This document shows, one piece after another, positions 1,847 through 59,276 of a stretch of DNA of 64,000 nt (position 1 is the first letter of the stretch; every line of letters begins with the position of its first letter). The translations under genes and the position numbers were made by a program. The notes under the pieces are model-generated. The model was given only the letters and a program-made list of their open reading frames with translations, did no database searches and was not told where the DNA came from. Origin of the DNA: Succinivibrio dextrinosolvens (GTDB lineage: Bacteria; Pseudomonadota; Gammaproteobacteria; Enterobacterales; Succinivibrionaceae). The stretch is from the NCBI RefSeq assembly GCF_011065405.1, contig NZ_CP047056.1:2068747-2132746 (forward strand), written 5' to 3'.

Positions 1847-3853
1847 TTATTTGCGCTTTGGCATAACTTTAGCCTTTTTGGCAGAGTATGGATCTGGTAG
1901 CATCAGGCCACCGACGCTTTCACAAGGAGCCGCAATAATTGAACGGGTCTTCTTGTTGATCTCAACTACCTTCAAGGCTATCTTATCGCCTAATCTGTAC
2001 ACTAGATTCTGATTAACATAGATCTCACCAGCATCACCAAGCAGCGTCAGCGCATCCTTATCATCAGACATCATTGAGAAAGGAACAAAGACCATAGCTC
2101 CGTTTGCCTCAAGAATAGCCTTGAATCCACCTCTTGAAACTTCAAAGATTGAAGCATCAAATCTGGTTTTCTTCTCAATTTCAGGTTCGAGAAACTCTAC
2201 ATACAGCCAGTCTTTTACATCTCTTTCAGCCAAGCGGTTGGTTCTTCTGGCTTCATTCATGATCTTTAGAAGATTCTCATCAGGCATGGTGATCTGCTCT
2301 TTATGCTCGATCATGGATTTTAGAAGACGGTGGTTTACCATATCTCCGTATTTTCGGATTGGGGAGGTCCAGGTTGCATAGTTGTAAACACCTAAAGCAT
2401 AGTGAGGACCAGGTTTGATGGAAATCTCTGAGAATTCCTGAAGTTTTCTGATACGGCTGTCCAGATAGTCATTGTTATTCTCAATGGCAAATCTTCTGAT
2501 AGCGTTGTACTCTTCAATCTCACCTAGCTTTTCCTCATTGAAAGGACAGTTTTCCTTCTTCAGAAGTTCAATCAGATCCTTTTTCTTCTGCATATCAAAG
2601 CCCTTGTGCAGATTGAAGATACCGCTATTAAGCTTCTGTGCAAGGAAATTTCCGGCTGCAATATTGGCAACGATCATTGATTCTTCAACAATACGGTTGG
2701 CAATACGGCGGAAGTTTACCTCGATATGATCAAGTGAGCCATCATCTTTAAGAACGAAATCATAATCAGGCTTATTCTTGAAGGTGGCTGCATGAGTTGC
2801 ACGATATTTATCGCGACACTCTGTAAATTTTATAAGTTTCTCCAGAATTTCTTTGATTTCATCGGTTGGGACATAATCTGAACCTTCAACCTTCTCAAAG
2901 AAATCAGAAACCTTGTTGTAGGCAAGTTTGCCGTGAGACTTGATGGTTGCCAGCTTGAACTCGGTTTTATCAGAGAGCAGAGTTCCATCCTTGGCAACGG
3001 TCATGATTCCAACTAAGGCTGGTCTTAATTCATTCTCACGTAAAGAGCAGAGGTTCTGAGAAAGAATTCTTGGCAGCATTGGAATATCTCTGCCTGGCAG
3101 ATAAATAGAGAATGCTCGGTGAGATGCACTTTCATTTTCAGGCGTATTCTGCTCAATGTATCCGGTTGGATCGGCAATGGCAACATACAGCTTGTAATCC
3201 TCTTGGTTCTCCTCAATATACAGTGCATCATCCATATCCTCGGTATGCTCTGAGTCGATGGTAACGAAAGGAATTGCAGTCATATCCTCACGAGGAAGAT
3301 CTTTCTCTTTGAATTCAAATTCTGAATCCTCTGGTTCCTGAGTTGGAAGATCATATTTTCTTAAACTTACAAGCCAAGGTGTCTTTGGATCATCCTTTTT
3401 ACAGATAAGCTCATCCAGAGAGGCTCTGAACTCTTTTTTCTGCAGAGCATGGCCTTTAAGATTACAGATAACCCAGTCGCCATTGTTGAGTTTTACTGAC
3501 TGATCCTTGCGTCTGTCATCCGCAGCAATCTTAATGTTGATATTTGGATGATCAGGAATAATGAACAGTTTCCCTGAAACAAAAAGTACCTTTGCCACGA
3601 ATCTGGTCAGGTATGGCTCGACTAGCTTTTCAGGTATAGCTTTGTTTTTGTCGCCTTCCTTTTCAATAATGGCCACAACCTTATCGCCGTTAACCACATT
3701 CTTCATGTCGTTAGGGGCAATAAAATATGAATCTCTGTCTACCTCAAGAAAACCGAAAGCTCGATCGGTGGACTTGATATAGCCTTCTTTTCTGACTTTT
3801 TCTTTTTCAAAGGTGTTTTTCAGCTGTCTTAATGCTGGATCGTCAAATAACAT
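1847..3853 (-). CDS. rnb: Exoribonuclease II
   Basis: A processive 3'-5' exoribonuclease of the RNB family that degrades mRNA in the cytosol. Domain order is two cold-shock domains (about residues 1-190), the RNB catalytic domain with the metal-binding cluster TIDSEHTEDMDDALYI, and a C-terminal S1 domain (about 560-650). The open frame extends a further 41 codons upstream, but that extension is hydrophobic and unlike the family. The Met at 3853 begins MLFDDPALRQLKNTF, which lines up with the E. coli RNase II start, and has GGAGAG upstream. This gives 668 residues, close to the 644 of E. coli. It lies divergent from the prenyltransferase pair. Confidence 0.95.
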   Translation of the reverse strand: MLFDDPALRQLKNTFEKEKVRKEGYIKSTDRAFGFLEVDRDSYFIAPNDMKNVVNGDKVVAIIEKEGDKNKAIPEKLVEPYLTRFVAKVLFVSGKLFIIPDHPNINIKIAADDRRKDQSVKLNNGDWVICNLKGHALQKKEFRASLDELICKKDDPKTPWLVSLRKYDLPTQEPEDSEFEFKEKDLPREDMTAIPFVTIDSEHTEDMDDALYIEENQEDYKLYVAIADPTGYIEQNTPENESASHRAFSIYLPGRDIPMLPRILSQNLCSLRENELRPALVGIMTVAKDGTLLSDKTEFKLATIKSHGKLAYNKVSDFFEKVEGSDYVPTDEIKEILEKLIKFTECRDKYRATHAATFKNKPDYDFVLKDDGSLDHIEVNFRRIANRIVEESMIVANIAAGNFLAQKLNSGIFNLHKGFDMQKKKDLIELLKKENCPFNEEKLGEIEEYNAIRRFAIENNNDYLDSRIRKLQEFSEISIKPGPHYALGVYNYATWTSPIRKYGDMVNHRLLKSMIEHKEQITMPDENLLKIMNEARRTNRLAERDVKDWLYVEFLEPEIEKKTRFDASIFEVSRGGFKAILEANGAMVFVPFSMMSDDKDALTLLGDAGEIYVNQNLVYRLGDKIALKVVEINKKTRSIIAAPCESVGGLMLPDPYSAKKAKVMPKRK

Positions 3854-4017
3854 TATTAATATGCTCTCCGAAAAAATATCAGCGTGAATTATACATGGAT
3901 AGCGCATTCTTTTCACAAAAATTAAAAAAAACGCCAAAAGTAATTTAAAATAGAAAAAAGATATCAGAAAAATCAAATAATAATCATTTTTGAATTAGAA
4001 AAGAAATTACTTGTACA

Positions 4018-4962
4018 ATGCTTAATGATCAGATAAACACCAGAATCCGTTTTAATTCTTACGCCTTTGCCCTTACAAACTGTATTCTCGGCTGTGCTCT
4101 TGGTTTTTTCTATGGTCATGTCACCTTTGAAACTATAATTACCGCCATTTCTATTTCAATTACGGGTGTCAGTGTACTGGCCCTGTGCAACTATTCTATT
4201 GATTACTCCAGAGCCTATAAGCTGCATCTTAAGGATAAAAAGAATGGTATTATTTCTCCGATCATGGTTGGAGACCTTCCGGTTACCCAGCTTCGCAAGC
4301 GCATGGCCATCATGACCCTTATTGCCACTGTATTCGGTGCCATTGCCATCTATATTGCTCTGGGATCAAACATCCAGGTGCTTTCCTGGTTTATCTTTCT
4401 GTGTGTAATGTGTGTTTTGGCAACCCTCTTTTACAATGTTTCCGCCTTATACCTGTACAGAGGTCTAGGTGCGATTGCAATTTTTCTGCTGTTCGGAATG
4501 GCCTCTGTGGTCTGTGCACAGTTTCTGATTGTTGCTGCCAGTCATTCCACCATTGATATCTACCCTGATACTATACTTCTGGCGTTCTCCTCAGGTGCAG
4601 CCTCTTTGATGATTCTGTACGGACGTTCCATCCGAATGATGGTGAATGATACTCCTAATGTAATCAGGAAATCATTTGTGCTTTCATTTGGCTACAAAAT
4701 TACCTCCATTTATCTCTTAGCACTGCTTTTAGCCAATATTTTCTTCTCGGTTTTAGCCTGTGTATCTTCCCACAGACCTATTGAGGCACTTCTGCTGCTG
4801 ATTGGCTTTATTCCTATGTCATATCAGGTATACACCATTCTCCGTCACATGAAGATGTCGGTAATTCTTAAGCAGAGTTTCAACAATCTGATGTCCTACT
4901 GCTGTATAAATAATCTTGTATGGGTTATTATCCTTACAGTAGATTACTGGTTATATAACTGA
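4018..4962 (+). CDS. MenA-like membrane prenyltransferase paralogue with degenerate active site
   Basis: A 314-residue polytopic membrane protein, about nine hydrophobic segments, with the UbiA/MenA architecture and clear similarity to the next gene (shared TNCxxGCALGFxYG near the N-terminus and LPVTQLRKxM/SLTQLRKAM). The first Asp-rich motif, NFADDYGDA in the neighbour, reads NYSIDYSRA here, so two of three acidic residues are lost. The second motif, DIEEDRTTGKKT in the neighbour, reads MMVNDTPNVIRKS. It is intact as an ORF and not obviously decaying. It is therefore probably catalytically dead or altered, perhaps a regulatory or structural partner of MenA. The RBS is weak. The fold is clear; the function is not known. 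Confidence 0.75.
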   Translation: MLNDQINTRIRFNSYAFALTNCILGCALGFFYGHVTFETIITAISISITGVSVLALCNYSIDYSRAYKLHLKDKKNGIISPIMVGDLPVTQLRKRMAIMTLIATVFGAIAIYIALGSNIQVLSWFIFLCVMCVLATLFYNVSALYLYRGLGAIAIFLLFGMASVVCAQFLIVAASHSTIDIYPDTILLAFSSGAASLMILYGRSIRMMVNDTPNVIRKSFVLSFGYKITSIYLLALLLANIFFSVLACVSSHRPIEALLLLIGFIPMSYQVYTILRHMKMSVILKQSFNNLMSYCCINNLVWVIILTVDYWLYN

Positions 4963-45774: not shown

Positions 45775-46947
45775 TTAACCTATTATTTTTTTTATTAAAC
45801 CGAAGAGTCCAATCTTCACTAGTATTTTTTTATATTTGTATTTAGGAGGATAAAGTTTCTCTATAGAATCCCAAAAATTATTATCTCCATTCAGAAGCCG
45901 GTCAAAGAATTGTTTTCTTTGAGGAGAGGCAAATGAAGATTTTTCGACAAGGGGATTATCTTTAAGAACCGAACTGTATTCTAAATTGTGAAGATTCTCT
46001 AATGAGGATTCTGCATAGTTTTTTCCTCTTGTTGTACAAGCGATAATGCAACTAGTTCCTAATGTTCCTTCACCTTTGTATTGGGAATACCAATCTCCTA
46101 AAATTAAATCAATTGAATTATGTATTCCTTTACAATCGCAATGTGCACATGCATTTCTCATAGCAAGATTGTATACAATCGTAGATTCCATCCATTTAGA
46201 GGAAGGAAGGAAGGTAGGTAGGTAGACTATTTCTCCTGATTCATATTCATAGCGACAGTAGCTCTTTTTGTACCCTTCTTTAGACTTATCTCTAAAGTTT
46301 ATTGATACCAATTTGCTGTGATGCTTTGCTTCATCCCACGTTTTAAATGATTCCCATGCTAGAGGTGAAGATACACCATGGCAAATTACAGCAACAATGA
46401 TTGCGTTCTCTCTATATTTTGAAGCTGAACTATTAACAATTAAATTATGAGCTGCCGTTGCCTGACAAGGTGTTCCGGAGAAAACAATTTTATTATTTTT
46501 CTTTAGAGCAATGACAATGTCTTTCAAAACATCACCCATATCCGATTGAACGTATTTCGAGCCTTGTGTGGTAATCAATGTTTGCATTGAATTGCCTACA
46601 CTATGAATTGCCCTTAACTCTTTATTCCATACGCAACCTGCAACTAGTCCTCCCTCATTTATTGCGTGTTTTCCTATTTCAAACCAAGCTGCTCCTGACG
46701 AACTTTTCTTTTTTACATTACTATTCTTAGATGCATAAGTCCAACATCCAGATATATTACGTTTTGATGGAGGATTAAGATGAACACATACTTTATTGCA
46801 CAAATTGCAGTTTATACATTTGTCTTTATCAATGTGAGGAATCAAAAAGCCTTCTTGATTCTTCTGCATGCTAATTGCTTTTTTCGGACATATTGAGTAG
46901 CAGGCTGCGCATCCAGAGCAAAATTCTTCGAAGTCAAAATCAATCAT
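45775..46947 (-). CDS. Fe-S protein of the FrhB/F420-hydrogenase-beta family in a polysaccharide locus
   Basis: 390 residues. An N-terminal 2[4Fe-4S] ferredoxin domain (CSGCAACYSICP and CINCNLCNKVC) is followed by the FrhB-type N and C domains (VFSGTPCQATAAHNL, VICHGVSSPLAWESF and SIDLILGDWY). Such proteins often sit next to polysaccharide pyruvyl transferases, as here, where the start overlaps the upstream gene by 4 bases. The family includes flavin-dependent redox enzymes, and a role in reducing or modifying a sugar precursor is plausible, but the reaction is unknown. Last gene of the polysaccharide operon. Confidence 0.8.
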   Translation of the reverse strand: MIDFDFEEFCSGCAACYSICPKKAISMQKNQEGFLIPHIDKDKCINCNLCNKVCVHLNPPSKRNISGCWTYASKNSNVKKKSSSGAAWFEIGKHAINEGGLVAGCVWNKELRAIHSVGNSMQTLITTQGSKYVQSDMGDVLKDIVIALKKNNKIVFSGTPCQATAAHNLIVNSSASKYRENAIIVAVICHGVSSPLAWESFKTWDEAKHHSKLVSINFRDKSKEGYKKSYCRYEYESGEIVYLPTFLPSSKWMESTIVYNLAMRNACAHCDCKGIHNSIDLILGDWYSQYKGEGTLGTSCIIACTTRGKNYAESSLENLHNLEYSSVLKDNPLVEKSSFASPQRKQFFDRLLNGDNNFWDSIEKLYPPKYKYKKILVKIGLFGLIKKIIG

Positions 46948-48071
46948 TTATCTTTCCTAAATTCAGCTAGAGCGTTCTCCAAAAACTCTAAAGATGCTTT
47001 TCTTAATACTGTCTTTTTATTTCTAACGATCTCAAAATCTGTTTTTGATATTTTTTCGAGATCTATTTCTGCTGTATTTACAAGGTGATCTGATAGTTGT
47101 AACTGATCAAGTAAAGATTTCATTCTTGGATCTGGTGTGTTGTCAGAAACAATTGAGACGAAAGACTTTTCAAAATTAGTCGAAAATGCCGTACCATGAA
47201 ATGAATCTGTTACTACAAAATCAGCATATTTGATCAAACTTAAGAACTCACATGGTCCAACATCCAGTTTTCTTGTTATTCTAGAAAATAAAGCTCTTGG
47301 CGGAGGTGTTATGTTGATTAAAGGAAGTTTTAATATATTTGCTATTTTTTTTGCTGCTGTTACTACTTCATTGCCACATGACCAAGAAAATAAAAGAACA
47401 TATGGATGTTCAATTAGTCGTTTTTGACAGATTAAATCGTAATCCTCTTTATCTAATAGCAAAGTTGGATCTAATGTAATACAAGCATCAACCCCAACTG
47501 AATTTAGAAATTCAACACCAGAATGTTCTCTTACAGATACTGCATCAAAATTTTTTAAAAGAGGAACAATAACGTCACGATATTTAGGAGCTTCCTTAAC
47601 CCATTTTCCAAAAGATGCTGCATAAGATACTCTTTTTTGCTTTTTAGGAAAATTTAGGTAGAACAACAGATTTGCTGCTGGAGCGTCATTTTGACTTAGA
47701 TTCCAGATCTGATCACTGCCACAGATAATACAATCATAGATTGATGCATTTTTTATTACATCTGATTCTTCTCTATAAAGCTTACTTATAGGAAGATGTT
47801 TATTTGTATAACAATCAAATAAAGCTTGTCTCTTTTTTAGCTGAGTTAGATAAGGAACTCGTGTAATTATTTTTATAAATTCTTTTAATCTTCTTGGTGA
47901 GCGACTGAACATTTCTCTACTGGCAAGAAAACGTGCTGTTTCAAAATTAATTATTTCGCAAGAAATTCCCATCTTGTTGATTACAGTCGATAGAGCGTAT
48001 GCTTGTAAACTTGCTCCATAGTTATATCCAGTATGATATGTGAGAATGCCAACTTTATTTTTACTATTCAT
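46944..48071 (-). CDS. Polysaccharide pyruvyl transferase family protein
   Basis: 375 residues of the PS_pyruv_trans family: N-terminal VGILTYHTGYNYGASLQAYAL, ICGSDQIWN, VSYAASFGKW and the C-terminal FVVTDSFHGTAFSTNF. Members such as CsaB and WcaK ketalise sugars with pyruvate from phosphoenolpyruvate, adding negative charge to surface glycans. It overlaps the FrhB-like gene by 4 bases. The pyruvyl donor activity is inferred from the family. Confidence 0.85.
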   Translation of the reverse strand: MNSKNKVGILTYHTGYNYGASLQAYALSTVINKMGISCEIINFETARFLASREMFSRSPRRLKEFIKIITRVPYLTQLKKRQALFDCYTNKHLPISKLYREESDVIKNASIYDCIICGSDQIWNLSQNDAPAANLLFYLNFPKKQKRVSYAASFGKWVKEAPKYRDVIVPLLKNFDAVSVREHSGVEFLNSVGVDACITLDPTLLLDKEDYDLICQKRLIEHPYVLLFSWSCGNEVVTAAKKIANILKLPLINITPPPRALFSRITRKLDVGPCEFLSLIKYADFVVTDSFHGTAFSTNFEKSFVSIVSDNTPDPRMKSLLDQLQLSDHLVNTAEIDLEKISKTDFEIVRNKKTVLRKASLEFLENALAEFRKDK

Positions 48072-48115: not shown

Positions 48116-49567
48116 TTATTTTTTAGATCTGAGTTGACTGTAGGTATGTAAAACTTTTGTTCTATTTAAATAGCCTACAATAATAAGGGTTAATAAAGAC
48201 ATTAGTCTCAATAGAGGAAAATCGTATAAATAGATTATTAGTCCGCCTAATAGAATGATTAAAAAGGACGTAATAAACAGAAACTTAAAATCATACACAA
48301 GGCTAAATTTTTCGTCATGGCCTATAGACAATCTCAAGAATATATAGTGCATAACTGCCAATAATATATATGAAATTAAAGTGGTGTATGCTGCAGCTAA
48401 ATATCCGAATTTGGGAATGAAGATATAATTTAATAATATATTTGTTAAGGCTGCAATTATCGAGGCAACAGCCACTCCTTTTGTTTTTTCTAAATATATT
48501 TCAACATACATAAATAGAACATAGACGTAAATAAAAAAACAGCCAATCATAATAGCTGGAATGCCGACAACCGCTTCATAGTAGGACTCTGGAGCTGCTA
48601 ATCTTAGAATTTCTGGTCCAATTAGCATAAAAAAAACTGTAAGCATAAACATCATTATTGTTAACGCTTTTGAATTTGTTCTTATATCTATGTAATCTTT
48701 ATTTTTAAGTGAATAGTACAGCCAAGGAGCAAATGCACCATTAATTCCTGTTCTGATTATTGTCATAACCATCGAAATTTGATATACGATGTTATAAATA
48801 CCTGCTTTAGCAGAACCGCAAATATAGCTGATCATTATTCTGTCAGCATGCCCCAAAAGAAGTTCTGATACATAGTGCGGAATAAGAGGAAGTGCCATTA
48901 TCATTGACCACTGCCAATAATTCTTACTAAAAATTGGAGCTTGTTTTTTATAATTACAGAAAAAAAGAAATGAACAAATAAAAGACTCGATGATAACTGT
49001 TACTGCTATTAACGAGAAGCTTTTATCATCCGAAATTATTGTAATTATTACCCCAAAGATTAAACTACAAATTGAATTGGTTAGAGATATGAATACCAAT
49101 TTTTTGTATTCAAATAAGAATCTCTGTTTTTGAGACCAATACTGCAGAGAAGGAAATAAAATAAGATGTAAACACATCAAGATTTGGAATTTAATGGAAT
49201 ATCCTGTTTGATTAGTTATAGATTCATTAAAAATAATAATTATGAAGGAGAATAGAAATCCTAAAAGTAAGGTAAGCCACTGTATGGAAGAGATATAAGA
49301 ATCACGCTCCTTCTCGTATTTTATCATTGCTTTGTTGAAGGTTCCGCTGTATATGTTTAGCGAGGTAAATATGCACAACAAATTAAACCATGATAAAAAA
49401 ACAGCATACATTCCATATTCATCGGCTGTCATGATTCTTGTAAAAATAGGCATACCTATAAATTGCATGCCTCTTTGTATCATGTAGCAAACAATAAACC
49501 ATAAAGAAGCTTTCATGGTTTTGGATGCTCTTTGATACTTATCAACTAATTGCCTAATTATTATCAT
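48116..49567 (-). CDS. wzx: Wzx-type polysaccharide flippase
   Basis: 483 residues with about 12-14 membrane segments of the MOP/polysaccharide_synt fold (MQFIGMPIFTRIMTADEYGMYAVF at the N-terminus, typical of Wzx). Expected to flip lipid-linked repeat units across the inner membrane. Overlaps wzy by 4 bases. AT-rich codon use differs from the core genes to the left. Confidence 0.85.
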   Translation of the reverse strand: MIIIRQLVDKYQRASKTMKASLWFIVCYMIQRGMQFIGMPIFTRIMTADEYGMYAVFLSWFNLLCIFTSLNIYSGTFNKAMIKYEKERDSYISSIQWLTLLLGFLFSFIIIIFNESITNQTGYSIKFQILMCLHLILFPSLQYWSQKQRFLFEYKKLVFISLTNSICSLIFGVIITIISDDKSFSLIAVTVIIESFICSFLFFCNYKKQAPIFSKNYWQWSMIMALPLIPHYVSELLLGHADRIMISYICGSAKAGIYNIVYQISMVMTIIRTGINGAFAPWLYYSLKNKDYIDIRTNSKALTIMMFMLTVFFMLIGPEILRLAAPESYYEAVVGIPAIMIGCFFIYVYVLFMYVEIYLEKTKGVAVASIIAALTNILLNYIFIPKFGYLAAAYTTLISYILLAVMHYIFLRLSIGHDEKFSLVYDFKFLFITSFLIILLGGLIIYLYDFPLLRLMSLLTLIIVGYLNRTKVLHTYSQLRSKK

Positions 49568-50913
49568 TTTTTTATTTCTCTCGCTCTCACGAATAACTTA
49601 CAAAAAACGATAATGTACACAATATAAAGGATATTTATTGGCCGGCTATATGAACGAATTGTGTCCTGATAGAATGTCATTGCCACCATAGCAAATAAAA
49701 AAATATAGCAAGAGGAGAGGTAAACATATTTATTAATGTTTTCCGTTACCAATATTTTTTTATAGATATAGGAAAAGAAGAAATAAAAAAGTGCGACAAA
49801 AATTAGTGCCCCTATAAAACCGAAATCAATATAAGGAGCACAAAGAAAAGTATATTCGTTTCCCGCTCTTTCCGGATAAAATGGGCTCCCCATATTAATC
49901 CATAACCTATCTGTTGGTGGAGTATCTACAATTTCAATTTGATTTAGAAATTTCCAAAAACCATTAAATGTTTTTTCTCCAAAATATCCTACAAATGGTG
50001 TGTGACATAATTCTGGTTCGTAAACAATTCTGCTCATAAGGGCGGTCGTTGATCCAAAATAATATGTCATATAACTAACGAAATCTCGTTCTAAAGTTGT
50101 CCCTTTTACAATATTAGCGCTTTCAAAGAAAATCACGATTACAGAAACTGACAAGAGAATTAATTTTTTTATTAAAATTGAGAGCTTTTTCCTTGGAAAG
50201 TTTTTTCTTTTGTATATAGCGATGAACATTGCAACAATAATACCAAATAGATAACATATGGCTGAACTTCTTTGACCTGAAAAAAAAGTTGCAATCAATG
50301 TTAATATCACTATCGTTAGAGAAATTTTATTTTTTCTCAAATGTTCATGTCTTGTGAATACATTGTGAGAAAATATGACAATATATATGTAACTCGCTAT
50401 ACGAAGTGTGTTGTACACAAGTCTTGCAAGTCCGTCGAAATCACCTTTTTCTTTATTAAATCCAATTGCCTCCCATAGAGAATTAGCGCCTAAGGAGATT
50501 CCTATTTTATAAATACGATAAATATAGATAAAAAAACATAACAGAAAAAATAAAAAAAGAATTTTCTCCCATGAATGAACAATAGTTAATCTATAATTTT
50601 CGTATTTTCCGCTAAATATAAATTGATTGCAGCAGATTTTCATATTTGGTTTGCAATGGGAATTAAAGCTAAAATTACGAACAATATATTCGGTGGTAAG
50701 CATGACAAGAAAACACAATAAAAAAAATAAGAAAGACTTAAAACCGAATACTACATACCATTCATTTGTACAGTAAGCAAAGCTACTTGTTGATACAATA
50801 AATAAAGTTAACGTGACTATGGAGGGCGAGATAACATCCCCATGAAATTTATTCCATGCGATTGCTAGTAAAATACCTTCAAAGGCGATCAAAACGTAAA
50901 TCAAAAATTCCAT
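49564..50913 (-). CDS. wzy: O-antigen/capsule polymerase, Wzy-like
   Basis: 449 residues, strongly hydrophobic, about 11-12 membrane segments with a larger polar loop (about 280-345: TTLERDFVSYMTYYFGSTTA, then GYFGEKTFNGFWKFLN) as in oligosaccharide repeat-unit polymerases. No single diagnostic motif exists for Wzy; the call rests on topology, the loop and its place directly before wzx. Very AT-rich. Confidence 0.75.
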   Translation of the reverse strand: MEFLIYVLIAFEGILLAIAWNKFHGDVISPSIVTLTLFIVSTSSFAYCTNEWYVVFGFKSFLFFLLCFLVMLTTEYIVRNFSFNSHCKPNMKICCNQFIFSGKYENYRLTIVHSWEKILFLFFLLCFFIYIYRIYKIGISLGANSLWEAIGFNKEKGDFDGLARLVYNTLRIASYIYIVIFSHNVFTRHEHLRKNKISLTIVILTLIATFFSGQRSSAICYLFGIIVAMFIAIYKRKNFPRKKLSILIKKLILLSVSVIVIFFESANIVKGTTLERDFVSYMTYYFGSTTALMSRIVYEPELCHTPFVGYFGEKTFNGFWKFLNQIEIVDTPPTDRLWINMGSPFYPERAGNEYTFLCAPYIDFGFIGALIFVALFYFFFSYIYKKILVTENINKYVYLSSCYIFLFAMVAMTFYQDTIRSYSRPINILYIVYIIVFCKLFVRAREIKK

Positions 50914-50940: not shown

Positions 50941-52008
50941 TCAGAATAATTTTTTTAGAGCTGGTTGTTTTTCTGATGCTTTAATAATCGAATATGACAC
51001 AGCAATTGACATCAAAAGTGTAATTCCACCAAGCGCTAAGTTATACAAATAAGGACTGGTATGGATTTTTCTAAGAGCAAAACCGACAAAATACATAATT
51101 TCAAAGTGAATAAAATAAATTAGTCCGGAAATCTTTCTAAGATTTCTTGTTTCTTTTATAGGAGTAAATCTTGATAATTCAATTAGAAGACAGATTAAAA
51201 AATAAGTACTAGGTACTAAAAAGATTTTTAGCTGATTCCCTGTAGCTGCATAATCATAACCGCTTATTACGTATGAAAATCGCACTTCAATAATTCCAAT
51301 AATAAATGATATCAACACCCCCGCAATTGAGGTTCTTATTCCCAAGATAGAATGTTGTTTATATTGTTCTCCGATAAAAACACCTAATGTAATAAATGGA
51401 AATCCAAAAAAAATACCATTACGAATAAAGGCATCAGATACCATAAACTTTCCAAAGTCAGAATAGGAATATATAAATTTAAAAAAATCTTTATCTATAA
51501 GAATTATGTATTTGAAAACTGATGCCATTAAAAACAAAGATAGAGATATTGATAAAATAAGCTTTAATCTATGTTTTAGTAATCTAATAGAAATTACCAA
51601 TAAAATAATCCCTGTTACCCCACCCCACAGGTACCATAAAGGAAAATTACCTAATGCAAACTGTTTTAATGCACTAAAAATGTATTCAGCTCTATCTTTT
51701 GAAAGAAGATATTTGCACAGATGGATTGGTATATACAAAAGACTCCATATTAAATAAAGAGAGAACAAACGAATTGCCATCTTTTTTGATGTGGCAAGAA
51801 TATCTCCCTTTATGCAAAGAAAAAAAACAGTTAGAGCAAAAAAATATGGTACGACCATCCCTCCTAACCACCTATTAAAAAACATTGTTGTATCCCCGAA
51901 TAATTCGAAATTTCCGAAGACAACACAATGACCTAGTAAAATGGTTATAGCCATAAATAAGCGCATATAATCAAGTTCGTGCAGAGAATTATGTGGAATC
52001 ATATACAT
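50941..52008 (-). CDS. Membrane acyltransferase (acyltransferase 3 family)
   Basis: 355 residues with about ten membrane segments. The N-terminal HELDYMRLFMAITILLGHCVVFG has the family's R...H arrangement (normally RxxAxxxVxxxH). It probably O-acetylates a sugar of the surface glycan. The weak RBS leaves the start uncertain between Met1 and Met3. Sits between the GT9 and wzy genes in the operon. Confidence 0.8.
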   Translation of the reverse strand: MYMIPHNSLHELDYMRLFMAITILLGHCVVFGNFELFGDTTMFFNRWLGGMVVPYFFALTVFFLCIKGDILATSKKMAIRLFSLYLIWSLLYIPIHLCKYLLSKDRAEYIFSALKQFALGNFPLWYLWGGVTGIILLVISIRLLKHRLKLILSISLSLFLMASVFKYIILIDKDFFKFIYSYSDFGKFMVSDAFIRNGIFFGFPFITLGVFIGEQYKQHSILGIRTSIAGVLISFIIGIIEVRFSYVISGYDYAATGNQLKIFLVPSTYFLICLLIELSRFTPIKETRNLRKISGLIYFIHFEIMYFVGFALRKIHTSPYLYNLALGGITLLMSIAVSYSIIKASEKQPALKKLF

Positions 52009-52023
52009 ATAGTTAACAGCATT

Positions 52024-53235
52024 CTATTCCTGAAAAAAATTGTGGGATAACTTGTTTATCTGTTCTATTACATCTGAAATTTCTATATCAGAAATACATA
52101 AAGCTTCCTTGTTCGTTTTAATTCTATTAGCGCACTCTTTGTTACCATATCCTGCGTTGTACCCTCTAGTTCTGCACCATCTACAGGATTGGTCTTTAAT
52201 GATTGTTTGGGGTAGTAAATCTCCATCTTCTAAAATATCAACCTGATAAGGGAAGAACAGATTTTTGTCGTAGACTCCTGCTATGCATATTGAAGGGACT
52301 CTGGCTGCAACCGACATATGGACTGTTGCGCTATCATTTCCAATAACAATGTGTGCATGTTGAACAATGGATGACCATTCTGAAAAACTGGTTTTACCAA
52401 TGTGACTAATAATCTTCTCAGAATGTTTTACTTTGTTTTTTAGTTGATTTGCGTATTCTTCCTCACCAGGGGAACCACATAGATGAATATCCAACTCAAA
52501 CTTCTCGATTAAATAGTTTGATATGGATGCATATTTATCTATGGACCAGCATTTTTCTGCTTTTGATGAGCCTGGGCAAATTACTGCATATTTTCCAGAG
52601 ATAATGCGATCTTTTTCTTTTAATATAGGCAATCGGCTTTTGTAATTAGTAAGACCAAGATATCTTATTAGTTCACGGTGCCTTTGTAGCATCATATCTT
52701 CTTTTGCTGGTCTAACAGTTTCGTTATACGCAATTTTTGAAATATAGGCATATAGAAACGGTTTTTTTAAATCTATTGAACGAACGAGTCCTATTTTTCT
52801 TTTAGCATTTACAGAACAGGAAAATATCTCTGCTGATAGGCTTGTTACAGGAACTACAATGGTTCCTGCTTTATTTTTATAGGAATTGATGATTAGTCTG
52901 TAATATTTATAGTCAGATAAGAATTTCTTATAATCCAACTCTTCATATGTAATATCTTCAGGTATAGGCATAGTTTCCATCATAAATTTAAGTATGGAAG
53001 GTCTTGCAAGGAAAATCAGGTTATATCCTTCATTCTTAGGATATAGTTTCGTATATGCCTCAAGAGAACTTTGGATTAAGATTGAATCTCCAAAAATCTG
53101 TTGAAAAACTATAATGACAGTTTTGTTGCTACAAACTTTCTTGTTTAACGTGGATAATAAAACGTTTATGACAATTCTGACTCTTGAAATTATTGCGGGC
53201 ATTTTCATTGCTTTATATTTGTTTTGTTTAACCAT
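52024..53235 (-). CDS. Glycosyltransferase family 9 (heptosyltransferase-like)
   Basis: About 403 residues of GT-B fold. GT9 features: AVICPGSSKAEKCWSIDKYA, the nucleotide-sugar region HLCGSPGEEEYANQL, and HIVIGNDSATVHMSVAARVPSICIAG near the C-terminus. In this context it more likely builds the repeat unit or outer core than the inner-core heptoses. Several Cys near the C-terminus (CRWC...C) may bind metal. Start uncertain: Met at 53235 lacks a clear RBS. Confidence 0.82.
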   Translation of the reverse strand: MVKQNKYKAMKMPAIISRVRIVINVLLSTLNKKVCSNKTVIIVFQQIFGDSILIQSSLEAYTKLYPKNEGYNLIFLARPSILKFMMETMPIPEDITYEELDYKKFLSDYKYYRLIINSYKNKAGTIVVPVTSLSAEIFSCSVNAKRKIGLVRSIDLKKPFLYAYISKIAYNETVRPAKEDMMLQRHRELIRYLGLTNYKSRLPILKEKDRIISGKYAVICPGSSKAEKCWSIDKYASISNYLIEKFELDIHLCGSPGEEEYANQLKNKVKHSEKIISHIGKTSFSEWSSIVQHAHIVIGNDSATVHMSVAARVPSICIAGVYDKNLFFPYQVDILEDGDLLPQTIIKDQSCRWCRTRGYNAGYGNKECANRIKTNKEALCISDIEISDVIEQINKLSHNFFQE

Positions 53236-53256: not shown

Positions 53257-54015
53257 TTACTCGATGTAAGGAGTCTCAAAAAAGTGATCTTTTAAGTAGT
53301 CAGAAAACTTACCTTGATTTTTATTTGTTCTTTCAATTACATAAAACAGCGATACACTTCCAGTAGGCCATATTTTTGATAAGAATCTTGAGATGAATAC
53401 AGGAAAAGGGTAAAAATTCGAACCGTATGTTTTATTTAGTGAAAAGAACTCACCTGCTGTAAAAAATTTTGTGAAGTCTTTTTTTGTAAATCCTCGAACA
53501 TGAGGTCCTAGAGTATGGATGGCAGAAGGTTGTTTTCCTAATAATAAAAGAATTCTATTGTGAAATGACGCTAAATTTGGAACTCCAACAATTAGAATTC
53601 CATTAGGTTTTAGGATTCGTCCGATTTCAGAAAATATATGAAATATCTCTTTTGTATGCTCAAGACATTGGTTCATTATCACGATATCAATTGAAGATGA
53701 TTCATAATCATAATTATCATTCTCAAGATTTATTGACTGTACCGAAACTCCCTGGTTTTGTAGTAAATTAACATTTGGTAAATAGTTTTCTATCGCATAT
53801 AACTCAACATTCTCACAACCTGCAGATTCAGCCGAGTTTTTGGAATTTTGTAAATCAGTCCCTGGTCCTGCACCAAGATCTAGAATTTTTACTGATTTTA
53901 GTTTGTTAACAGAAATATGATTAAAAACAGCTTTTTTTATGATGTTTCTTCCATAATTCTCTATTTCTGTCCCTGTTTTTAATTTCTTAAAAAAATCATA
54001 AAAAAAATCAGACAT
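53257..54015 (-). CDS. SAM-dependent class I methyltransferase
   Basis: 252 residues with a Methyltransf_11-like Rossmann core: motif I VKILDLGAGPGTDLQ (about residue 41), SSIDIVIMNQCLEHTKE (motif II/post II) and LKPNGILIVGVPN (motif III). In a glycan operon it probably methylates a sugar or terminates chain growth. No other domain. Confidence 0.82.
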   Translation of the reverse strand: MSDFFYDFFKKLKTGTEIENYGRNIIKKAVFNHISVNKLKSVKILDLGAGPGTDLQNSKNSAESAGCENVELYAIENYLPNVNLLQNQGVSVQSINLENDNYDYESSSIDIVIMNQCLEHTKEIFHIFSEIGRILKPNGILIVGVPNLASFHNRILLLLGKQPSAIHTLGPHVRGFTKKDFTKFFTAGEFFSLNKTYGSNFYPFPVFISRFLSKIWPTGSVSLFYVIERTNKNQGKFSDYLKDHFFETPYIE

Positions 54016-54038
54016 GACTCATTCTCTCTTAAATAAAT

Positions 54039-55117
54039 CTATTTTAAAAAGTTCAAACTATATATAAATCTGTTTTTCATCGGCCTTACATAAACCTGAA
54101 AAATACTTGCTACAAATATCAACGCTTTTCGTGGAAGCATTTTTGCCAAGGCAAAACACAACAATTTCCATTTCTTACGATTGTCATTCCAAAGAGGAGA
54201 ATCGATCCAAGGCGTTAAATCTTTATAGAAGAGCCATTTGTAGGCATATCTATGTTTACAACCTTTCATCCAAGGTCGTTTGCTCATGAAAGATGATGTA
54301 TAGTGAATAATGTATGGATGTTTAATTGCTTCGATGATTCTTTCTTCAGAATAGTAATCTTTAGGAGGTTTTCTATAGGTAAGTATTTCTTGATAGTTAA
54401 AATCAAAGAAAATGGTTATGGCATTGAACTTAGGATCAATAATTCTGCAGTCTTTAGATAAAACAGCACTTAAAACTCCTTGGTCAGACTGCTGAACTTT
54501 TCCTTTTTTTAATCTTATAAAATCTAGAAGTTTTGTTTCGATCTCGTGACTGCGCCATGACTGTACATCTATAAGTAGAACACCTGAATTGAAGATAGTA
54601 GCAGTTGGATCTAACCCAAGGTTTTTTCTGTAATATTTTGAAAAACAGTCATCAAGTGCTGCAACAACACTATTATTAAGATCTAGTTCCCATAACTCTT
54701 TTAGTGACTTGTTTATAACGATGTCACAGTCTAGATAGATAACTCTGTTTAAATTATCTGGTAATAGAGAGCCAACCATTAAACGAGAAAACTGACTTAA
54801 GCTCCCTCTATCGGTTGCAATATTTATATTTAGAAGATTGTTTAAATTTGGACAATGAAGCCAGCTTATTGGGCTTCGATTGTAATTTGCGGGGATGGAT
54901 TGAAGTTTTTCTTTGTTTTCTTCTGAGATATTTTCGTCAATGACGTAAACATCGATATTTGAGAAATTAGTATTATTTTCGTATAAACTAACAAGACTTA
55001 CACCTAGTATTTCAGCGAATTTGTTATCGGATGAGTATACCACGCTGATTTTATGAGAAAAATTACCTGTTACCCCCCCCCGGTGGCTCTTGTAATATTG
55101 TAACTATTTATATCCAT
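54039..55117 (-). CDS. Glycosyltransferase family 8, probably phase variable (out of frame by one G)
   Basis: The GT8 body has VVYSSDNKFAEILGVSLVSL, the metal-binding DxD motif IYLDCDIVI and NSGVLLIDVQSW, for transfer of a hexose or hexuronic acid onto a lipid-linked glycan. An uninterrupted frame exists only from a GTG at 55043. The natural start appears to be ATG at 55117, behind GGAAAGAGAG: MDINSYNITRATGGG then TAA, because of nine G at 55081-55073. Ten G would give GGG-VTGNFSHKISVVYSSDNK and run into the GT8 frame. As assembled the gene is OFF or makes only a shortened product. First gene of the glycan operon. Confidence 0.82.
55073..55081. repeat. Homopolymeric G9/C9 tract (contingency site)
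   Basis: Nine C on the plus strand, that is nine G in the coding strand of the GT8 gene, 36 bases after its ATG. It is the only G or C run of this length I saw in the window. Slippage to 10 (or 7, 13) restores the frame. Confidence 0.9.
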
Positions 55118-55195
55118 TTTCTCTCTTTCCTTAGTTAGTTTTTTTCATTAATTTACGAAAGCAAATTATTCAGTACTGTATCACTTTTGAAAAAA

Positions 55196-56221
55196 TTAAT
55201 CATCTATGTCTTTTTCTTTTGAGTATTCAATTATTGAATTATCTCTGATAGCGGGTGTATCTGAAAGCTCCTGTAATTTTTGTCGTAAGATATCCTTATT
55301 TGGTAGTTTTAGTTTGTACTCTGAAACCATCATAGGGGATAACGTTCTGCTCATTGCGTATTCAACAACTTCATCATTCTTTGATGCACATAGCAGTAAG
55401 CCTACGCTTGGATTTTCATCATTTTTCTTGATTTGCCTATCTAATCCCTCAAGGTAGAAATCCATTTTTGATATGTACTCTGGTTTGAATTTTCCTACCT
55501 TTAGTTCTATTGCAACCAAACATCTTAGGCTGCGGTGGAAAAACAGGAGATCAATCCTGTAGTCTTCACCTCCAACCTGAATAGGGTACTCTTCTCCAAC
55601 AAAGGTAAAATCCCCTCCAAGTTCCAGGATGAAGTTTTTCATATTTGAAACTAGGGCTTTTCTAAAATCGTTTTCATGAAATGTTTCTGGAAGATTCAGA
55701 AACTCAATTACATATGAGTCTAAAAACGGAGACTGTTTAGATTTTACTGGTTCTGGTAGTAAATTCCCCTTTGACAGCATAAAACGCTCGTAATATCCAG
55801 TATCAATCTGTCGTTCAAGTTGACGTTTACTGTAATTTTCTTTAACAGAGAGTCTTAAATAAAATTCACGTTCTTCCTCTGTTTTGCAACTAGACAAAAT
55901 TAGAATATGGCTAGACCAACTCAATTTGGTAATCAAATCTGATAATTGTTCATTTGTATGATAAGCCTCGTAAAACTGTTTCATTCTGTAAAGGCTTCGT
56001 CTGGTGAATCCCTTGATTCCTGGGAACTGTGACTGAATATAATCCGACAACCTATTCATATAATCATCACCGTAACTGGCGACTTTAGTCTGTTCAGATA
56101 GAACTTTTCCAATACTCATGTACATGATTATAAGTTGAGTATTAACCTGTCTTAAGGCATTTTCACGACTGTCTTTTATTATTTGTAATATATTTGTAAA
56201 AGTCGGATCTAATAGGTTCAT
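55196..56221 (-). CDS. YhcG-type PDDEXK nuclease-domain protein (DUF1016)
   Basis: 341 residues. The N-terminal DUF1016 half (ALRQVNTQLIIMYMSIGKVLSEQ, RMKQFYEAY, LSWSSHILILSSC) precedes a PDDEXK nuclease domain with YRIDLLFFHRSLRCLVAIELKVGKF: the catalytic Asp and E-x-K are present. E. coli YhcG (RhnC-like, DUF1016) proteins are linked to DNA breaks at structured or replicating DNA and often occur in mobile regions. It is preceded by a strong palindrome 22 bases upstream of the ATG and lies 79 bases ahead of the phase-variable GT8, in the same direction. Confidence 0.85.
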   Translation of the reverse strand: MNLLDPTFTNILQIIKDSRENALRQVNTQLIIMYMSIGKVLSEQTKVASYGDDYMNRLSDYIQSQFPGIKGFTRRSLYRMKQFYEAYHTNEQLSDLITKLSWSSHILILSSCKTEEEREFYLRLSVKENYSKRQLERQIDTGYYERFMLSKGNLLPEPVKSKQSPFLDSYVIEFLNLPETFHENDFRKALVSNMKNFILELGGDFTFVGEEYPIQVGGEDYRIDLLFFHRSLRCLVAIELKVGKFKPEYISKMDFYLEGLDRQIKKNDENPSVGLLLCASKNDEVVEYAMSRTLSPMMVSEYKLKLPNKDILRQKLQELSDTPAIRDNSIIEYSKEKDIDD

Positions 56222-56242
56222 GAGTATTTTTTTCCTTTATTC

Positions 56243-56271
56243 AAAAAGTGTCACCACTGGTGACACTTTTT
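56243..56271. promoter_or_regulatory. Palindrome TGTCACCA-n-TGGTGACA, copy 1
   Basis: Perfect arms AAAAGTGTCACCA (56244-56256) and TGGTGACACTTTT (56258-56270) around one C, directly upstream of the nuclease gene. A-rich/T-rich flanks also make it look like a bidirectional terminator, but its position before a start codon suggests an operator or attenuator. Confidence 0.6.
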
Positions 56272-56324
56272 TAGAATATAAAATTTATGTGACAAAACAA
56301 CAAATTGGTAAATTAAGTCATAAT

Positions 56325-56420
56325 AAATACATAGAGCAGGTCTATTGGTTCACAAAATTGAATGAAAAAAAATGTCACCAGTGGTGACACTTTTTTATCC
56401 CACTCTTTTTCTATGTATTT
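56325..56420. repeat. Palindrome copy 2 inside a larger inverted repeat
   Basis: TGTCACCA-G-TGGTGACA (56373-56389) repeats the palindrome at 56243, in opposite orientation and 125 bases away. It is framed by AAATACATAGA (56325-56335) and TCTATGTATTT (56410-56420). The rest of the gap 56272-56595 is AT-rich with no gene; CTATTGGTT also occurs twice (near 56343 and 56443). Confidence 0.55.
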
Positions 56421-56595
56421 TATAGAATTCAATGAATAAAGACTATTGGTTATTTATGGTTTGATAACCAGGAGTAAATCTTGGCTTTCGCAACGACTAT
56501 TCTTTATTTTGAATACCGTTTGAAAATCAATCTGAATTCGAGTGATTAGATGAAAATTTTCTAAAATTCTTCCTAATCGTTATGAATTTTATGGA

Positions 56596-56800
56596 AAAAA
56601 TTGGGCATGACCAATTTTTCTGTAAAACGAACTATACAAAAGTTCTAGTGCAGGATAGGCACTTTCTCCCCAAATGCAACGCATGGTCAAAACTGCCAAT
56701 CCTGCTCTCTGAGGGCAAAATCAAAGAAATTGATTTTGAAAACACAAAAACTGAAGTTTTTTGTCGCAAGAGAAGCTTGCAGTTTTTATTTTGTTTTATA
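56596..56800 (+). other. Structured element, copy 1 (oriT-like site or structured RNA)
   Basis: A series of hairpins. AAAAATTGG/CCAATTTTT (56596-56619). Then the conserved block CTAGTGCAGGATAGGC (56645-56660), whose GCAGGAT.GGCA pairs with TGCC.ATCCTGC (56694-56705) around an inner ATGC/GCAT hairpin. Then GCTC-TCTGA-GGGC (56704-56716), CAAAATCAA/TTGATTTTG (56716-56738), and a terminator-like GCAAG/CTTGC hairpin with a T-rich tail (56766-56798). The same order occurs on the minus strand at 60541-60667. It stands about 140 bases ahead of the zinc-ribbon gene, in the same direction. Confidence 0.6.
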
Positions 56801-56938
56801 AGGGGATTTACTTCTTGCAATTCTTTGCAGTAAAAATTCATATTTGTTTAACAGAATTTACAAGAAAATCTATGTATTTTTGAAAAAAGCATCGTTTTTT
56901 GACGATTTTTGTAAAAAAATGCATGATTGGGTATCAAA

Positions 56939-58372
56939 ATGAGTGAATTTTTTGAAATAAATGAGTTAACAGAAGCTGTCTATGAAGCACTGGCAAGAGA
57001 CTATGAGTCTGACGAGTTTCAAATAAAAGAACTTGTTGATAAATATAATTTAAACCCAATCTATAAGAAAAGAAGTTTGTTTCAACTGCTAAAAAAGAGA
57101 ATTAAATCCGATAAAAAATGCCCAAATTGCGGTGAGTTTATGTATCGCCCTGTAAGAAGTAGAAATGGACAGTATGATTGCTACAAACAGGATGATTATA
57201 TTTGCAAAAAATGCGGTCATTTTAATGACGAAGAAAACTGTGAATGTGATTCATGTAAAGCTAAAAGAAAGAACAAAGAAGAAAGAATAAAAGCTAAGTT
57301 ACAGGAGCTACAAGATAAGGAGGATTTTGTTATAGCCAAAAGACTTTTCCTTGTAGAAAAACGAAAAAATCAAATCCACGCCTTCCTTGTAACCAACACA
57401 AACCAGACACGTTATTTCAAGTTTGAAGAACTATCTTTAAAACATAAAATTTTCATAAGCTGTTTATGTTCAACATTAAAAATGATAAATCAGACTGGTA
57501 TTTTATTAAGCTTAGAAAATCAGGATGCGACTGCTCTTAATTCAATTTTTCCTAGGATGAAGTCATTTTCCCTTTGGTTAAAAGAGTGCATTCATATCGG
57601 ATTGATATCTGTTGACCAAAATTCTCCTTTAGATTCTTTTGTTTTTAATGACGATATAGGCAGTGTTAGTTACATAACAACAAAAGTTAATCTGAAAATA
57701 ATGATAGAGGAACTAAACGATAATGATAATTACATTGAAAATTTAGAAAAAATTAAGACATTGAGTTATTCGTTTTCTAAGGTATCTATCAAAGAGGTCA
57801 AACATTTGTGGTCAGAAATAGGAGCGCAAGAAATTCTGGCGTATATGAATGAACGTCTCATTCATGATCGACTCCTTGAACTTGATGATTCTCTATTTAC
57901 AACGGTAAAACCTGAAATAATAGAAGGTGAAAAAAATTATTTTTCGCACATGATAGAGAAAGGATTATCTATTGCTCAGACTCAGAGTGTTGTTTTTTCG
58001 GCTTTTAGAAATGTAACTGATACCCAACTATATAAGGAATTTCTAACAGAAAGAGGAAAATGTGCAGATTCTTCTGTTAGTCAGCTCGATTATACAAAAC
58101 TGTCCCTAATTAACAGTCTTCAATTCCAAATCTCTGATATTGGAGCAAAGCTTTTGACTGGTCGCAAAGAATTTAAGGGTGGGCATAGACAATTCTCATT
58201 GCGTCAGTCCTCATTGAGCTTTACTTTTTTTGATGTTTTTCTTGGAATGGATAATCTTGTAGATCCTAATGTAGATTTTTTTACAGCCTGCAAAGATGAG
58301 ATTATTCAAGAGTTACTTGAAAATAGAGAATCTGCCAATGAACCTGTTGGTTATGATGAGACTCTAGGCTGA
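56939..58372 (+). CDS. Zinc-ribbon protein of unknown function
   Basis: 477 residues from the ATG at 56939 (a TTG 12 bases earlier is also in frame). The N-terminal segment (about 1-55) looks helical and possibly DNA-binding. A double Cys cluster follows: CPNC at 61-64, CKKC at 89-92 and C-x-C-x2-C at 101-106, consistent with two zinc sites. Then a charged helical linker (KNKEERIKAKLQELQDKED) and about 340 residues with no recognised domain. I do not recognise the family. It is the only plus-strand gene in the element apart from the XRE repressor, and the structured element lies in its leader region. Confidence 0.6.
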   Translation: MSEFFEINELTEAVYEALARDYESDEFQIKELVDKYNLNPIYKKRSLFQLLKKRIKSDKKCPNCGEFMYRPVRSRNGQYDCYKQDDYICKKCGHFNDEENCECDSCKAKRKNKEERIKAKLQELQDKEDFVIAKRLFLVEKRKNQIHAFLVTNTNQTRYFKFEELSLKHKIFISCLCSTLKMINQTGILLSLENQDATALNSIFPRMKSFSLWLKECIHIGLISVDQNSPLDSFVFNDDIGSVSYITTKVNLKIMIEELNDNDNYIENLEKIKTLSYSFSKVSIKEVKHLWSEIGAQEILAYMNERLIHDRLLELDDSLFTTVKPEIIEGEKNYFSHMIEKGLSIAQTQSVVFSAFRNVTDTQLYKEFLTERGKCADSSVSQLDYTKLSLINSLQFQISDIGAKLLTGRKEFKGGHRQFSLRQSSLSFTFFDVFLGMDNLVDPNVDFFTACKDEIIQELLENRESANEPVGYDETLG

Positions 58373-58400
58373 CATAACAGCGCAGTTTCATAGTAGAAAA

Positions 58401-58423
58401 GGTGGAGTATATGGAACTCCATC
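58401..58423. terminator. Possible bidirectional terminator
   Basis: GGTGGAGT (58401-58408) can pair with ACTCCATC (58416-58423), with one G-T pair, between the convergent ends of the zinc-ribbon gene and the RHH gene. T runs are short on both sides. Confidence 0.35.
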
Positions 58424-58432
58424 TTTAAGATA

Positions 58433-59164
58433 TTAAGCCTCCAATAAAAGTTTTACCAGCATGTTACTCTCTGAAAACTTCATATCTTCTGCCTTACGAT
58501 TGATTTTTAGTTCGCTAATGCTTTCGCAGTAAAAGTTCTCAATCTTCCAGAGAGTTCTATAAGCTTCAGTTAAATAAAGCATTCTGTTGTTAGAGAAGTT
58601 CTCAATGACCCTGAAGATGAAATTGGTGATCTTGCTAACCTCATCATCACGAAATCCCTTTGCTTTTAGTAGTCTTTTGAACTCTAAGCTTCTTACCAGA
58701 AGTTGATCTTCATATTGATGATGATTGATGTATGCAAAGGTCTCAATCATTTCTGCAGGACTGAATTTTCCTTGTGAAAACTGAATCTTTCTAAGAAGGT
58801 TCAACTCTAGGTCACGTATCCATCTGGCGTGGCACTGTCTATTTGTTAGTTTGTCAGTTCGACGGTCAAACTCTTCCTGAGAGACCATTTCTCTTTGCAG
58901 AAATTCACTTCTTTTATCGAGAGCCATTTCATAAATTCTACTTACAGCAAGTTCAACAAATTGAGAAGAGCTCAATCCATACTGACGGGCCATATACTCA
59001 AGATTCTCCTTGTTATCTTCAGTACTGTATAATTTCATCTGTATCTTCTTGTCTGTTGATAGAGGACGTCCTGCCTTGCCTCTTGCGCGATGTGGGAATG
59101 CATCTGCACCTAAAACTTCTTCATATTCTTCTGTTTTCTTAACATCTTCTGTTAGTCTGTTCAT
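58433..59164 (-). CDS. Ribbon-helix-helix DNA-binding protein
   Basis: 243 residues. After a basic segment (HRARGKAGRPLSTDKKIQ) a ribbon-helix-helix-like motif is seen: IQMKLYSTEDNKENLEYMARQYGLSSSQFVELAVSR, given as KIQMKLYSTEDN and YGLSSSQFVELAVSRI. The rest is helical with no recognised domain (ends FSESNMLVKLLLEA). It is the third in a row of RHH-type genes read leftwards and is probably part of the same mobilisation or partition module. No catalytic motif. Confidence 0.55.
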   Translation of the reverse strand: MNRLTEDVKKTEEYEEVLGADAFPHRARGKAGRPLSTDKKIQMKLYSTEDNKENLEYMARQYGLSSSQFVELAVSRIYEMALDKRSEFLQREMVSQEEFDRRTDKLTNRQCHARWIRDLELNLLRKIQFSQGKFSPAEMIETFAYINHHQYEDQLLVRSLEFKRLLKAKGFRDDEVSKITNFIFRVIENFSNNRMLYLTEAYRTLWKIENFYCESISELKINRKAEDMKFSESNMLVKLLLEA

Positions 59165-59276
59165 TCTGATTTTTCCTTAAGCCCTTATTGTTTTTGATTT
59201 ATAAAGGACTTTGAAAATAAAATTTTTAAGGATTGTGCTGCCGTTGCAATCAAGCTCGATATATTCTTAGATTTTG

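Follow-up and report, generated by a model that had tools for sequence, protein, structure and literature searches.

How can a conserved GT8 gene be made into protein when the start codon that carries a ribosome-binding-site-like sequence in front of it leads, after 15 residues, into a stop? This question arose in a 64,000-nucleotide stretch of the Succinivibrio dextrinosolvens contig NZ_CP047056.1, referred to below as the window. On its minus strand, an AAGGA motif (55128..55132) resembling a ribosome-binding site lies 10 nt upstream of an ATG at 55117, and 36 nt (12 codons) further on comes a homopolymer of exactly nine G (55073..55081), the proposed contingency tract, followed immediately by TAA. 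Translated through the run, this leader frame (55070..55117, minus strand) yields MDINSYNITRATGGG*, a 15-residue peptide that ends at the stop codon directly 3′ of the tract. The GT8 frame itself (54039..55103, minus strand), identified by a PF01501 match and a frame scan, stays open for 354 codons from stop to stop and crosses the tract at offset 2 from the ATG frame. Frame analysis indicated that one in three tract lengths links the leader start codon to the conserved GT8 gene. A first-pass annotation made from this DNA alone had described both arrangements, a ribosome-binding site and ATG leading to a stop right after nine G and a GT8 frame that a changed number of G would restore, and the sequence bears it out on each.

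The earliest start codon within the GT8 frame is a GTG at 55041..55043 (minus strand), which has no ribosome site upstream, as the annotation had also said. The annotation had further proposed comparing the N terminus with homologues: in the one other copy of the gene that we found (described below) this codon is GTT, and we rejected the GTG as the usual start of GT8 on both grounds. The annotation's additional argument that starting at the GTG would cost the enzyme strand residues holds only in part: there is a loss, but a small one of about two residues, as judged from the alignment with LgtC, which begins at residue 3. Scanning positions 53950-55400 returned no terminators and three promoter-like sites, fewer than the 6.4 expected, and on this basis we propose no promoter.

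The product matches the GT8 profile PF01501 with an E-value of 5.2e-39 and 134.8 bits against a cutoff of 24.3, which places it in this family, and its best solved GT8 relatives are structures of Neisseria LgtC (1ss9, 4.7e-18; 1g9r, 5e-18). GT8 heads a run of same-strand genes that Pfam and NCBIfam trace to a pyruvyl transferase at its far end. Next in the operon is a methyltransferase (53257..54015), followed by a glycosyltransferase of the GT9 (heptosyltransferase) family (52024..53235) and an acyltransferase 3 family protein (50941..52008), all three assigned by profile search, then an oligosaccharide repeat unit polymerase that is Wzy-like (49564..50913; TIGR04370, 6.7e-28), a Wzx-like polysaccharide flippase (48116..49567; PF01943) and the polysaccharide pyruvyl transferase (46944..48071; PF04230), all on the minus strand. 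Flanking GT8 upstream, on the same strand, profile search identified a YhcG-family PDDEXK nuclease (55196..56221), which is probably not part of the switch proposed here. A GT8 paralogue elsewhere in the same genome is 30% identical and has no G run of six or more around it. At E≤1e-30, GT8 relatives among 394 genomes of the order were matched in this genome alone, and the other 18 genomes of the genus gave no copy at that threshold; the leader region was absent at E≤0.001 from 55 other genomes of the family, a 27-mer from the leader had no match in viral contigs, and a plasmid collection returned weak YhcG and GT8 similarities and nothing stronger.

The length of the run stands out in its surroundings. 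The second-longest G/C run in the window is five; the expectation for a word of eight G is 0.21 per shuffled window, with two or more such words in 2 of 100 shuffles. Word counts over the genome, a single contig of 3,468,545 bases, gave 76 runs of G6, 11 of G7, none of G8, five of G9 and two of G10. Seven runs of at least nine G were thus seen against 0.27 expected (Poisson probability 1.6e-8), the expectation being an extrapolation of the decay from G6 to G7 and not a mutation model; a pessimistic decay ratio of 0.3 still gave 6.6e-4. Nine is also the number from which G/C runs count as phase variable in the excerpted text of PMC5953494 (at least nine). The genus is not alone in having G9 runs: in a search of 60 genomes from the wider order, 52 had at least one.

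The further copy of GT8 lies on contig L017 of a rumen metagenome assembly, RUG12035. From window position 55124 to 55054, 71 nt comprising the ATG, the leader, the G9 run and the TAA are identical in the two assemblies, and the flanks differ, so that the tract is G9 in both copies of the locus. Across 302 codons the two GT8 genes have a dN/dS of 0.083, with 0.017 before and 0.081 after a frame-breaking 82-nt deletion in the L017 copy; the ratio is rough, as synonymous change in the later part of the gene is high (dS 1.15). By this comparison, the GT8 protein is under purifying selection though both assembled copies are out of frame.

The surroundings of the second copy are shared on one side. 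Upstream, window positions 55185-59204 align with L017:1-4020 at 97.8% identity over 4,022 bp, a block that includes the YhcG-family gene; beyond GT8, nothing in L017 matches the window at E≤1e-20, which implies that the leader and GT8 head different clusters in the two genomes. Three genomes (G011, G004 and G010) match a core block of 4 kb from the window at 98, 90 and 86%, and the genome holding L017 does not match it. We therefore rejected the view that L017 lies in the same species as the window; either the locus has been transferred or the contig is mis-binned. In L017, YhcG and GT8 are separated by an opposite-strand frame of 481 aa (L017:4220-5665), and just 75 nt upstream of the GT8 ATG are common to L017 and the window at that point.

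We collected long runs across the genus (sites L057-L106 and the window genome's own loci), obtaining 62 runs of at least nine, 61 of them distinct by flank. On the G strand, 17 of the 61 fell no more than 40 codons into a frame that stays open for at least 150 more, against 53 of 942 short runs of four or five from these loci (Fisher 1.6e-7). The C strand showed no 5′-end excess (4/61, P = 0.34), and the remaining 44 of the 61 lie away from the 5′ end of a long G-strand frame. Run length differs at orthologous tracts in two cases, one upstream of a gene (L056, L100 and L119, described below) and one coding, where the frame differs as well. The latter is a pair of acyltransferase genes (L067:2494 in G004 and L095:2450 in G002) with 99.63% identity over 810 bp: in L067 the run is G9 and translation from the ATG stops at 25 aa (OFF), and in L095 it is G11 and the reading continues for 465 aa (ON). 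All three frame offsets between ATG and gene occur among the tract genes of the genus. Offsets 0, 1 and 2 were found five, four and four times among 21 qualifying tracts, with one ambiguous and six having no ATG within 120 nt; L103, whose ATG reading stops at 10 aa, was left out of the offset-0 count, and some of the ATGs may be chance occurrences, for example at the DnaG primase gene (L105). A separate offset list of 13 genes was hand-picked from a 44-row tract table.

We consider a poly-G phase-variable GT8 heading an O-antigen-type operon, assembled in the OFF state, to be the best explanation of this locus, with a probability of roughly 0.8. The ATG at 55117 would be the real start of GT8, and replication slippage would alter the length of the G run and so bring the GT8 frame into or out of register; one length in three would yield enzyme, and the assembled G9, giving the 15-residue peptide, would be OFF. 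Tract length would be expected to vary within the population at this locus, and the OFF state would presumably cost the surface glycan one sugar, possibly with polarity on the downstream methyltransferase, GT9, acyltransferase, Wzy and Wzx genes. The observed basis consists of the anatomy, the leader and G9 shared with a second assembly, the selection on GT8 and the differences at other tracts. Reversible slippage accounts for the anatomy, for selection on a gene assembled OFF, for the length changes at sister tracts and for the spread of offsets, a random switch predicting just such a spread. The first-pass annotation, which had proposed poly-G phase variation of GT8, thus gains support from the L017 leader and run, the dN/dS of 0.083, the L067/L095 pair, the differing run lengths at L056, L100 and L119, and the 5′-end excess. 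Also in its favour are the surplus of runs of nine or more in the genome with none of G8, the amidotransferase split at L052 and the tract genes that fit surface-glycan work (both described below). Against the switch stand the two GT8 copies, both G9, between which no length variation was seen, the frame-breaking deletion in L017, the four of seven tracts in the window's own genome (L051, L053, L054 and L055) that have no evident role, the 44 genus tracts away from a long frame's 5′ end, the many tract genes with no link to the surface, and the commonness of G9 in the order.

A fixed G9 could instead let through a low level of GT8 by ribosomal or RNA polymerase slippage, in which case G9 would not simply mean OFF. 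Such recoding fits the presence in both copies of nine G with TAA directly after them, and it fits selection on the gene. A fixed site would, however, keep a single offset and a single length, and the occurrence of offsets 0, 1 and 2 rules out a constant recoding site genus-wide; run length also changes between near-identical genes. The offset and length evidence comes from genes other than GT8, the slippery site and offset being constant in the two GT8 copies and not among the other tract genes of the genus, and overall we regard recoding as unlikely.

That both copies are frame-broken, the one in L017 with its deletion in addition, is also what one would see if G9 were an old frameshift in a decaying gene; a window copy open for 354 codons and a dN/dS of 0.083 are at odds with long neutral decay, which makes a dead gene improbable. 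Homopolymers are error-prone on some sequencing platforms, and the true run might have a constant, in-frame length; the independent rumen metagenome assembly reports G9 too, however, and the same error would have to have arisen alike in two assemblies, which we consider very unlikely.

The best-described cases of poly-G phase variation come from mucosal bacteria, for example Neisseria and Campylobacter, the latter belonging to another class of bacteria. Neisseria lgtC, which encodes the GT8 galactosyltransferase of lipooligosaccharide, resembles the gene studied here in enzyme family and is its closest solved relative; it differs in bacterial group and operon, and at the present locus a short leader ahead of the GT8 domain contains the run. 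The excerpted text of PMC5953494 includes lgtC among the listed phase-variable LOS genes and gives most lgt tracts as poly-G with 9-15 repeats. Campylobacter poly-G genes are alike in that G/C homopolymer tracts occur both inside and between genes, according to an excerpt of PMC8355987. A 5′ tract whose frameshift leaves a very short product has a parallel in Listeria inlA and other homopolymeric 5′ tracts, as described in passages of PMC2831843; in those passages the surveyed tracts are mainly poly-A/T, and poly-G of 7-8 is over-represented in just 9 of 99 genomes. Searches of open-licence PMC papers returned none that dealt by title with phase variation or homopolymeric tracts in Succinivibrio, Succinivibrionaceae, the rumen or assembled genomes. 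This agrees with the first-pass annotation, which knew of no described example in this bacterial group; the proposed switch is of a well-known type for which we found no published example in the group within that literature. If the phase-variable reading is true, a commensal, rumen-linked lineage would carry switches over O-antigen-type genes, which would suggest that phage, protozoa or competitors, beside host immunity, select for them; glycan types predicted from a single assembly would then be a snapshot of one state.

A wider reading is that poly-G switches form a whole set in this lineage, with many of them controlling surface-glycan genes and some located in promoters, that a TA(A) 3′ flank is common to the tracts, and that at least one switch, the leader with GT8, moves ready-made between distant genomes and takes first place in different glycan operons. 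We offer this extension tentatively, with the odds somewhat against it in its full form. In a comparison covering loci L010 and L051-L106, TA follows 35 of the 61 long G runs (TAA in 22) and 66 of 935 runs of four or five (Fisher 7e-22). By genome, the flank is present at 17 of 22 tracts in G007 and at 18 of 39 in the remainder; elsewhere it was seen in 4 of 30 single tracts from 30 other genomes and in 6 of 11 runs of at least eight in the genome holding L017. Intergenic runs carry the TA flank as well.

What the tract genes encode was assessed with Pfam on 20 pieces chosen from the 44-row table, two of them with G8 runs. These comprised five acyltransferase-3 proteins (two being the near-identical pair), two sulfatases, two pyruvyl transferases (one above and one below the cutoff), an AlgX-like protein below the cutoff, and one each of a UbiA protein, a DAO oxidoreductase, an AAA_14/DUF4143 protein and the DnaG primase; six had no Pfam match, among them the product of L052, which NCBIfam names. 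Seven more genes added a glyoxalase, a CesT chaperone and a formyl transferase, along with two weak matches below the cutoff and two without a match; this more mixed picture slightly lowered our confidence in the wider reading. Among the 27 tract genes, a surface-glycan role fits five acyltransferases, two sulfatases and one pyruvyl transferase, and many have no surface link, including the DnaG primase, the CesT-type chaperone, the glyoxalase and others without a match. Glycan modifiers are, in raw counts, the largest group of the 27 scanned tract genes and not the whole.

Two further tracts in the window's own genome bear on genes or their upstream regions. At L052, a G10 run divides the gene for an N-acetyl sugar amidotransferase of the WbuX type into two parts (4415-4600 and 3475-4455), with TIGR03573 positions 1-58 before the tract and 62-344 after it. 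A relative in G004, 88% identical in protein sequence, has an unbroken frame and lacks a G run there. The gene sits among NeuB-, NeuC- and NeuD-like genes in a nonulosonate-type cluster.

Promoter-spacer phase variation is a known type of switch, and the tract at L056, which does not concern the GT8 gene, is alike in position. There, TTGAAA and TAAAAT flank a G9 run (L056:4277-4285) that is 75 bp upstream of a gene of 469 aa. The corresponding site has G12 in G011 at 97% identity (L100:2459-2470), G8 in G010 (L119:1700) and G5 in a paralogue within the same genome (L121:1553), the runs lying upstream of related genes between TTGAAA and TAAAAT or TAGAAT, boxes that were assigned by eye. From its placement and changing length, the L056-type run looks like a promoter-spacer switch. 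The 469-aa gene has no NCBIfam or Pfam match, and we accordingly dropped its candidate assignment as wzz. At L053, a G9 run (4540-4548) lies within a reading frame that is short and broken, close to repeated genes, and a 302-aa protein encoded near that tract occurs at L056 too.
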